From contig DVGV01000045.1 of the NCBI GenBank assembly GCA_018712545.1, positions 1 to 43,401 of the forward strand: a stretch of DNA of 43,401 bases, read 5' to 3'. The position numbers were made by a program, and so were the translations under genes. The notes beneath the pieces are model-generated. The model was not told where the DNA came from and did no database searches. It was given only the letters and a program-made list of their open reading frames with translations. Below, piece by piece: positions 11,702 to 13,272 of this stretch. The stretch comes from Candidatus Coprenecus merdigallinarum. GTDB taxonomy: Bacteria; Bacteroidota; Bacteroidia; Bacteroidales; UBA932. Numbering within the stretch: the first letter of the stretch is position 1; every line of letters starts with the position of its first letter.

Positions 11702-12148
11702 ATGGCCAAAGCAAAGAGCAAAATAGAAATCCGCAACAAGAAGGCCTCGTACGAATACGAGTTTCTGGAGAACTACACCGCCGGGATAGTCCTCACCGGC
11801 ACGGAGATAAAGTCCATCCGCGCCGGCAAGGCATCGCTCGTGGACAGCTGGTGCTATTTCTCCGGCGGAGAGCTCTATGTCAAGAACATGCACATAGCCG
11901 AATACTGGTGGGGTACCTTCAACCGCCACGATCCCAAGCGCGACCGCAAGCTGCTGCTCACCCGCAAGGAGCTCCGCAAGCTCGCCCGCGCCGTCAAGGA
12001 AAAGGGCCTGACCATCGTCACCCGCCGACTCTTCATCTCAGAGACCGGCTACGCCAAACTCGACATCGCCCTCGCCCGCGGCAAAAAGGAATACGACAAG
12101 CGCGAGTCCATCAAGGAAAAGGACCTCCGCCGCTACTCAGTCGACTAA
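11702..12148 (+). CDS. smpB: SsrA-binding protein SmpB
   Basis: SmpB binds the tRNA-like part of tmRNA and brings it to stalled ribosomes, where the nascent peptide is tagged for proteolysis. The 148-residue protein starts [33 protein letters not shown], the family signature for the beta-barrel that holds tmRNA. It ends with the positively charged tail [18 protein letters not shown], which folds into the decoding centre; the family length is about 150. The gene is divergent from the ATP synthase operon and convergent with the phosphatase gene, with a long inverted repeat between the convergent ends. The tmRNA gene itself is not in this window. Confidence 0.98.
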
Positions 12149-12161
12149 GCCAACAGGCACA

Positions 12162-12264
12162 CCGTCCGTACATAAGTATACCTCCGAAAATCCTCCCCAC
12201 CTGCGGTGGGTCCCCTCCCTTTTCGGGAGCCAAAGTTTTCGGAGGTATACTTATGTACGGACGG
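12162..12264. repeat. 103-bp element: 29-bp perfect inverted repeat holding two hairpins
   Basis: The arms 12162-12190 and 12236-12264 are perfect reverse complements over all 29 bases; the outer ends begin CCGTCCGTACATAAGTATAC. The 45-bp centre contains two hairpins of its own: CCCACC/GGTGGG (12196-12210) and CTCCC/GGGAG (12215-12229). Folded, each strand makes a long stem capped by two small stems, like a three-way junction. It fills the space between convergent smpB and the phosphatase gene, so it could act as a bidirectional terminator. A small non-autonomous mobile element or dispersed repeat is an alternative. I see no other copy in the window and cannot identify a target-site duplication. 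Confidence 0.9.
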
Positions 12265-12291: not shown

Positions 12292-13272
12292 CTATTTCGT
12301 ACGGGTGACGGTGTGGAGCACCTTGCCGTTCTTGTCGAGCATGTGCAGGCAGAGGGAGTCGGCGGAGACGGTCACGAGGGACCAGCCGGACTCGGGGCTG
12401 CAGAAGACGGTGCCCTCTATGGGCTCCACGTCACGGCTCAGGGAACCGGAGGTGTTGACGATGTAGTCGATGTCGCTGCCGTCCTTGCGGATATGCTGGA
12501 AGGTGTGCAGGTGACCGCAGACGTACATGTCCACATTGTCATGCTTGAGGAGCACGGTATTCACGCGTTCCTGCATGTTGGTGCGCTCAATCTCATCCTT
12601 GTCGGTGAAAGCGTAGATAGGATGGTGTCCCACTACGATAACCCAGTCCTCGTCGGCCTCCGACAGAGTTTTGTCCAGCCACGCGAGCTGCTCACGGTAG
12701 TCCGACTTGGAGGCGTCGGCGTACTTGTCGGTCTCCTCCCGGTACTTGTCGATGATGGGCGTGGTGTCGAGCATCACGATGCGGATCTCTACACCGTCCT
12801 CCTCCTGTACGAAGGTATAGTAGCGCGAGGGCATGTGCCAGCGGGCGCTGACCTGACTGTAGTCGATGCAGGCCTGAGTGTTGCTGCGGTACTCGTGGTT
12901 GCCGCAGACGGCGTACCAGGGCATCATCAGGTCGGGGTGGGAGTAGATAAGCTCGTAGTTGGTCATCCACAGAGGGTCGCTCACACTCTGCACGCCCTCG
13001 AAGTGGTGCACGTCACCGGCCGCCACCACAAACTCGATGTCGATGGTCTCAGCCATATCGCCCATGGTCTTGGCAATGGGTTTCTGGTCGTAGTAGCCGT
13101 TGCGGCCCAAGTCGTTGGCGATGTAGAAGTTGAGCGGCTGTTCCAAAGCCTTCCACTCCTGGGAGCGGTCCTCCCCTGTGGAGGAGGACACACTCACGGA
13201 AGTGTTGCAGGACACCGCTGTCAGGGACAATACCGCAGCGGCGGTAAGGGTCAGAAGATTGATTCTTTTCAT
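12292..13272 (-). CDS. Calcineurin-like metallophosphatase lipoprotein (purple acid phosphatase type)
   Basis: The signal peptide ends in a lipobox (LTAVSC, Cys22), placing the enzyme on the outer surface or in the periplasm. Metal-ligand motifs appear in the order of the calcineurin-like superfamily: D54 in NDLGRNGYYD, GDVHHFEGV at 86-94, GNHEY at 124-128, GHHPIY and GHLH further on. Spacing and the DVHHFEGV block resemble tartrate-resistant acid phosphatases, which hydrolyse phosphate monoesters; the first motif has ND where GD is usual. At 326 residues it is a single domain. It is the last gene of a probable operon with the beta-helix lipoprotein (37-base gap) and the TonB-dependent receptor, suggesting it strips phosphate from something that receptor imports. 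The substrate is not known. Confidence 0.87.
   Translation of the reverse strand: MKRINLLTLTAAAVLSLTAVSCNTSVSVSSSTGEDRSQEWKALEQPLNFYIANDLGRNGYYDQKPIAKTMGDMAETIDIEFVVAAGDVHHFEGVQSVSDPLWMTNYELIYSHPDLMMPWYAVCGNHEYRSNTQACIDYSQVSARWHMPSRYYTFVQEEDGVEIRIVMLDTTPIIDKYREETDKYADASKSDYREQLAWLDKTLSEADEDWVIVVGHHPIYAFTDKDEIERTNMQERVNTVLLKHDNVDMYVCGHLHTFQHIRKDGSDIDYIVNTSGSLSRDVEPIEGTVFCSPESGWSLVTVSADSLCLHMLDKNGKVLHTVTRTK

Follow-up and report, generated by a model that had tools for sequence, protein, structure and literature searches.

A dispersed palindromic repeat family with a fixed tip and arms that change in pairs in the Bacteroidales

Palindromic repeats that lie in frame within conserved genes are best known from Rickettsia, and in MITEs the ends are common to the copies and a target duplication is often left. 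In the excerpted descriptions that we drew on, Rickettsia palindromic elements (RPE) are long stem-loops of about 105–150 bp that occur both between genes and in frame within conserved genes (PMC2229807, PMC10969869). REPs (GTAG- or CGTC-tagged, RAYT) are palindromic, lie mostly downstream of genes and between convergent or unidirectional ORFs, with some copies within genes, and CGTC-tagged repeats occur in some Bacteroidetes, again according to an excerpted source (PMC3733652).

Here we describe a palindrome in a contig of Candidatus Coprenecus merdigallinarum (DVGV01000045.1, 43,401 nucleotides, all of which we call the window). The element is one copy of a dispersed repeat family of about 100 bp that is apparently undescribed: in the open-access literature, subscription papers being outside its scope, we found no such family in Bacteroidales. 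As far as the excerpted descriptions of RPE go, these are the nearest system in behaviour, a resemblance of kind and not of descent. Both are long stem-loops on the order of 100 bp, dispersed, and found in frame in genes, here in MiaA and, judged by frame and Pfam, in TruB, SpoU, DnaX and NamZ. Unlike RPE, the element is hosted by Bacteroidales, has a fixed tip on arms that drift in pairs, is strongly biased toward convergent genes, and is read in its in-gene copies in different frames and on both strands. By location the nearest system is REPs, again on a partial account of them, but these measure 20–40 bp and carry GTAG or CGTC as an end tag, whereas the element, at about 100 bp, has variable ends and conserves its tip. 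With MITEs (Correia/NEMIS, ERIC, RUP and BrickBuilt, as far as the portions of their descriptions used here extend) it shares small size, inverted arms, dispersal and some copies in frame in genes. In contrast to MITEs, its ends are lineage-specific (arm entropy 1.7 bits against 0.10 for the tip), so that conservation is reversed, and no consistent duplication was seen with it. Bidirectional intrinsic terminators likewise place a hairpin between convergent stop codons, but the element shows no T-tract bias, its tip is conserved, and its copies are dispersed and variably present.

Anatomy and distribution of the element

In the window, the two arms pair at 29 of 29 positions across a 45-nt spacer (Table 1), and this is the sole fully complementary repeat among the 10 window inverted repeats listed (at least 12 nt, spacing at most 150 nt). 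Folding placed two inner hairpins atop a long stem, at -69.3 kcal/mol on the plus strand and -74.9 kcal/mol on the minus strand; relative to shuffled sequences the z-scores were -10.2 and -9.8, and none of 200 shuffles equalled the fold on either strand. The element lies 13 bp from the left-hand ORF and 27 bp from the right-hand one. An earlier note, made from the sequence, had described a perfect 29-bp inverted repeat with two inner hairpins between convergent genes, and both the structure and its placement hold. Covariance model R1 scores the window copy, itself one of the 39 sequences from which R1 was built, at 94.2 bits over 12167-12259. Against Rfam 15, the window returned no match at or above the gathering score, and in eight further loci only sub-threshold matches overlapped copies.

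Table 1. Features of the window element and its flanking genes
Feature	Position	Strand	Remark
Whole palindromic element, 103 bp	12162..12264	- (conserved tip reads on - strand)	Covariance model match
Outer arm, 29 nt	12162..12190	.	Sequence lineage-specific
Partner arm, 29 nt	12236..12264	.	Complementary throughout
Conserved tip (core), 45 nt	12191..12235	-	CTTTGGCTCCCGAAAAGGGAGGGGACCCACCGCAGGTGGGGAGGA, read on - strand
Inner hairpin CTCCC-GAAAA-GGGAG	12215..12229	-	Almost invariant
Inner hairpin CCCACC-GCA-GGTGGG	12196..12210	-	
Flanking convergent ORF, 148 aa, SmpB-like	11702..12148	+	Name is a reading of the translation
Flanking convergent ORF, 326 aa, phosphoesterase-like lipoprotein	12292..13272	-	Name is a reading of the translation

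The host genome (2.2 Mb searched, 88 contigs, 87% complete) contains three strong copies: that of the window and one each on contigs 40 and 56. BLAST returned matches in 15 of 59 genomes, the host's own included, one of them a weak 32-nt match outside the family. In a sample of 199 genomes from the window's taxonomic family, the covariance model matched 49 (own genome included), in 9 of 25 genera and with 1–18 copies per matching genome; in an order-wide sample, 6 of 393 genomes matched and all six belong to the same family. Within the samples searched with the model, the repeat is confined to one Bacteroidales family, under strict filters in both searches that may miss weak relatives. The reading as an ordinary local terminator, which the earlier note had tied to an absence of other copies and of compensatory changes, fails on both counts, as copies are dispersed, many more of them in relatives than in the host, and changes in the arms are matched.

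Scanning genome contigs for an exact 18-mer of the tip recovered at least 116 stretches. Among the matches listed, 95 carried the strict tip, 11 a variant tip, three a tip truncated by N or by the end of a contig, and seven the 18-mer alone (L040, L047, L052, L070, L080, L081 and L131). The tip-bearing loci are assigned to Bacteroidales, with Ca. Coprenecus and Ca. Cryptobacteroides among them, or to groups above that order; loci with the 18-mer alone include Gemmatimonadetes, Sphingomonadaceae, Elusimicrobia and Clostridia. The loci read hold 133 distinct copies, a set that omits variant and cut tips unless they were found by another route.

A phage or plasmid origin was considered and set aside: an exact 20-mer of the tip had no match in viral contigs, the element had no match in phages, and three Azospirillum plasmid matches have other surroundings. 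These plasmid loci (L463-L465) hold a 29-39-nt piece resembling the region of the second inner hairpin (CCTCCCCACCTTCGGTGGGTCCCCTCCC). In G007, a member of the window's genus, ten places were read with near-identical arms, one of which (L152) lies at a contig end and may be the same place as L157 or L158. A larger repeat carries part of the G007 copies; among L152-L161, several are accompanied by an adjoining repeat (GGCAAAACTGTAGCAAGTGCGAAAGTTGGCATTGCAG), as if a composite had been amplified.

A fixed tip on arms that change in pairs

Read on the strand of the tip, the order of parts is arm, C[A/T/G]TT, GG, CTCCC-GAAAA-GGGAG, GGGA, CCCAC-loop-GTGGG, GAGGA, arm. Of 133 copies, 125 have a tip of 42-46 nt; in a few others its length reaches 84 nt. 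Mean entropy was 1.7 bits per arm column and 0.10 bits per tip column outside the second loop, an invariance of the tip that is partly ascertainment, since many copies were found via the exact 18-mer, which covers the CTCCC hairpin; copies found by BLAST or by the model have a somewhat more variable tip, chiefly in the first loop. In the CCCACC hairpin, two of five modelled stem pairs have changed on both sides in other copies.

The arms behave differently from the tip. Across 39 aligned copies, drawn from 48 non-redundant ones that had been chosen among 106 for their pairing, all 24 arm pairs had changed on both sides. Pairing over the whole structure held in 98.5% of cells of this alignment and fell to 44-52% when the partner was slid by one column. 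Between the window copy and its orthologue in G007, five of 29 arm positions differ, each with a matching change in the opposite arm; at the same locus, G011 and G002 carry one unmatched arm change each (the G017 row, whose tip ends GGT, was left out of this comparison). Within a genus or genome the inner arms resemble one another, between genera they do not, and on this ground we dropped the idea of wholly locus-specific arms.

The tip can also lie either way round. Among 12 orthologue groups, 4 include tips of opposite orientation relative to the flanks; one of 13 listed groups had been dropped as a tandem pair within one gene. The window locus is among the flipped groups, the tip in G002 being opposite to that in G000 and G011. 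Two further groups, L013/L028 and L020/L136, look flipped by eye, although their flanks or tips failed the script criteria. In tandem gene contexts, the tip runs with the genes in 10 cases and against them in 12.

Several copies depart from the common plan. A longer second inner arm (for example TCGTGAGC...GAACAGC) replaces the short hairpin at L067:2785, L117:4438 and L135:658, and in L454 (G006 contig 32) the first inner hairpin is broken at its loop by about 75 bp. We also asked about the six-frame openness of the tip: all six frames are open in the two tips tested, as they are in 35-41% of dinucleotide shuffles, and we do not regard it as special.

Sites of occurrence, between and within genes

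Intergenic copies favour the space between convergent genes: of 87, 61 are convergent, 24 tandem and 2 divergent, against 35, 188 and 57 among 280 gaps without the element in the same loci (gaps counted from crude ORF calls, with orthologous loci taken separately). A smaller, earlier tally put the three classes at 42, 22 and 3. The arms often come within about 20 bp of stop codons. Of 106 copies, 27 were called as inside an ORF, a figure that includes spurious ORFs, the window's own copy among them.

The presence of copies differs between close relatives. At the window locus the element is missing from G016, and G013, G006 and G014 have longer spacers whose fetched stretches gave no model match. 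A site filled in G002 is empty in G003 (flanks 99% and 98% identical), with an empty junction equally readable as a deletion between CCCG repeats. The contig-40 copy is absent in G007 (flanks 98% and 94% identical), and a copy of G017 is absent in G011. Empty and filled sites were compared at five loci, and no target-site duplication was consistent; clean empty sites are few, and they may reflect either insertion or loss. The earlier note had raised a MITE-like dispersed repeat. Its dispersal, variable presence and occurrence in genes agree with that suggestion; ends that differ between lineages and the lack of a consistent target duplication at the five loci do not.

Some copies sit inside what appear to be real genes, where neither the reading frame nor the strand is constant. 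Judged from sequence, the clearest is that in the MiaA gene of L106, where two tandem units lie in frame before the IPPT domain, in a position that we take to be between the P-loop and the DSRQVY motif. In a MiaA alignment, 18 of 19 rows have no insert and the remaining row (L376) has an unrelated insert of 31 residues; the rows, drawn from both strands, comprise 17 orthologue rows, two of which are pieces of one gene, and two of a second paralogue. In-frame elements are flanked on both sides by Pfam domains in a SpoU methylase (L107) and in TruB (L113), where the C-terminal domain falls below the curated cut-off. The TruB case is weaker than MiaA because the insert lies in a linker of varying length (10 relatives aligned, minus-strand loci left out). 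NamZ (L128) and DnaX (L130, two palindromes) are also weaker, since the in-frame copy lies before the first or after the last matched domain, respectively. Pfam assigned no family to 3 of the 8 proteins sent (L051, L061 and L115), which we did not take as real genes.

Two observations adjoin these cases. The second palindrome in the DnaX-like frame (L130:5503-5617) is a different one and scores 21 bits with the model. The MiaA gene with two units (L106:51-564) adjoins an SmpB-like gene, the gene type that also flanks the window copy.

How the repeat may spread and keep its arms paired

We consider the family to be probably a palindromic mobile repeat, non-autonomous, in which DNA-level exchange mostly accounts for the arms staying paired and also inverts the tip. 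It is the tip that would be recognised, and a fixed tip on a freely varying paired stem is what would be expected if a protein recognises the hairpin; as the arms need only pair, the tip may be displayed on a DNA hairpin or cruciform. Machinery supplied in trans would spread the copies, and those that persist would mostly be at the least damaging sites, immediately beyond convergent stop codons or, with the frame kept, within protein loops and linkers. The combination of perfect arms, matched changes and flips suggests that sequence is exchanged, or templates switched, between the arms, most likely by hairpin-templated copying or recombination, a process in which the arms would stay complementary as they drift; we propose that the tip occurs in both orientations at orthologous sites because the arms are copied from, or recombine with, each other. 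Template switching associated with quasipalindromes has reportedly been seen in E. coli. Against this reading stand the lack of a transposase recurring beside copies, the lack of a consistent target-site duplication, with the G003 site equally well a deletion between CCCG repeats, the larger repeat that partly carries the G007 copies, the small number of clean empty sites, which may reflect either insertion or loss, and arm mismatches that lean toward G-U, the direction of a transcribed hairpin, though they are few.

Selection for RNA pairing is the main rival to DNA-level exchange between the arms. Here the element would be a bidirectional 3'-end RNA element: convergent transcripts fold and end or protect the mRNA, the tip binds a protein, and copies are kept by selection. 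The strong convergent 3'-end bias, often within about 20 bp of stop codons, the survival of stem pairing through substitutions and the stable RNA fold are all consistent with it. So is the excess of G-U over A-C among arm mismatches, of which all copies together give 15 G-U, 6 A-C and 8 others (8, 3 and 4 with one copy per arm cluster; an earlier count of G-U and A-C gave 20:9). As a sign of strand-specific RNA, the ratios 20:9, 15:6 and 8:3 give a lean, on small numbers, toward a transcribed hairpin. T-rich runs occur at the base of the hairpin on 46 of 266 sides and, 150 nt away, on 22 of 261, an excess offset by A-rich runs that are equally common at the base (46 of 266); the T-rich runs are accordingly not those of an intrinsic terminator, and a terminator consensus scan found none at the window element. 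The structured double terminator suggested in the earlier note is not supported by this test, although the position by stop codons still fits a 3'-end role. Indifference of the tip to the direction of transcription, its flips between relatives, copies within coding genes, sites empty in close relatives and the lack of an Rfam match further count against the RNA element, which we judge somewhat unlikely.

A variant of the mobile-repeat reading would have only the tip inherited as fixed sequence. The inner stem would prime fold-back copying of the flank on insertion or repair, and the arms, partly templated by the target, would later be re-copied from each other. If true, each element would fit its own site and the tip would be free to flip. 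Compared with the empty G007 site, the filled site on contig 40 of G000 has an outer right arm that looks like the left flank in inverted form, as such copying would predict; inner arms common within a genus, and the failure to see the pattern clearly at other empty sites, make this version quite unlikely in our estimate.

What might move the repeat was sought among its neighbours. Clustering of 506 ORFs near 136 copies revealed no recurrent transposase, and the clusters found in three or more loci, among those listed, look like housekeeping genes, so that no partner gene emerged by this route; a few clusters do recur across genomes, one being the SmpB-like gene beside L106 and at the window locus. 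RAYT (Y1/HUH) transposases of the genus, moving a REP-like element, are a candidate that we hold to be doubtful, indeed very unlikely. A PF01797 match (RAYT-like, Y1) occurs in 15 of 19 genus genomes, and 3'-end bias and in-gene occurrence are also features of REPs in the excerpted account (PMC3733652). At one locus downstream of a Y1 gene, G002 has a canonical copy (L221) and, at nearly the same place in the orthologous site, the window's own genome has a diverged relative (L222:2910-3017, contig 57; 39 bits, 26-nt perfect arms, another tip). Yet 18 of 20 Y1 loci fetched lack the element, and in the other two it stands to one side of the gene, so that none of the 20 has copies at both sides; several of these loci are flanked by other palindromes; G003 and G009 have Y1 matches and only one diverged copy and no copy, respectively; and the arms are far longer than REP stems. 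At the outer ends of the arms, base frequencies in 101 copies revealed no fixed tetranucleotide such as a GTAG or CGTC tag. The RAYT-like genes of L225, L229 and L223 lie beside other short palindromes (CATCCTAACAT, GAAGGTGCCGACC and GAGAGTGTAC), perhaps REPs of their own.

The earlier note had also raised a protein-binding cruciform. A conserved structural or protein-binding DNA site, for the nucleoid or replication, displayed on a cruciform would suit the fixed tip, paired arms and indifference to orientation, but is highly improbable given patchy occurrence (genomes of sister species have from zero to 18 copies), insertion in genes and no known partner protein.

In-frame palindromic insertion is now seen in several genera of Bacteroidales and in unrelated genes. 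For the palindromic mobile repeat that we favour, a fixed tip on freely drifting paired arms separates recognition of sequence from structure. Its orthologous copies with flipped tips are a natural test of how bacterial palindromes stay perfect, and its in-gene copies a test of how housekeeping enzymes tolerate inserts of 30-60 residues.
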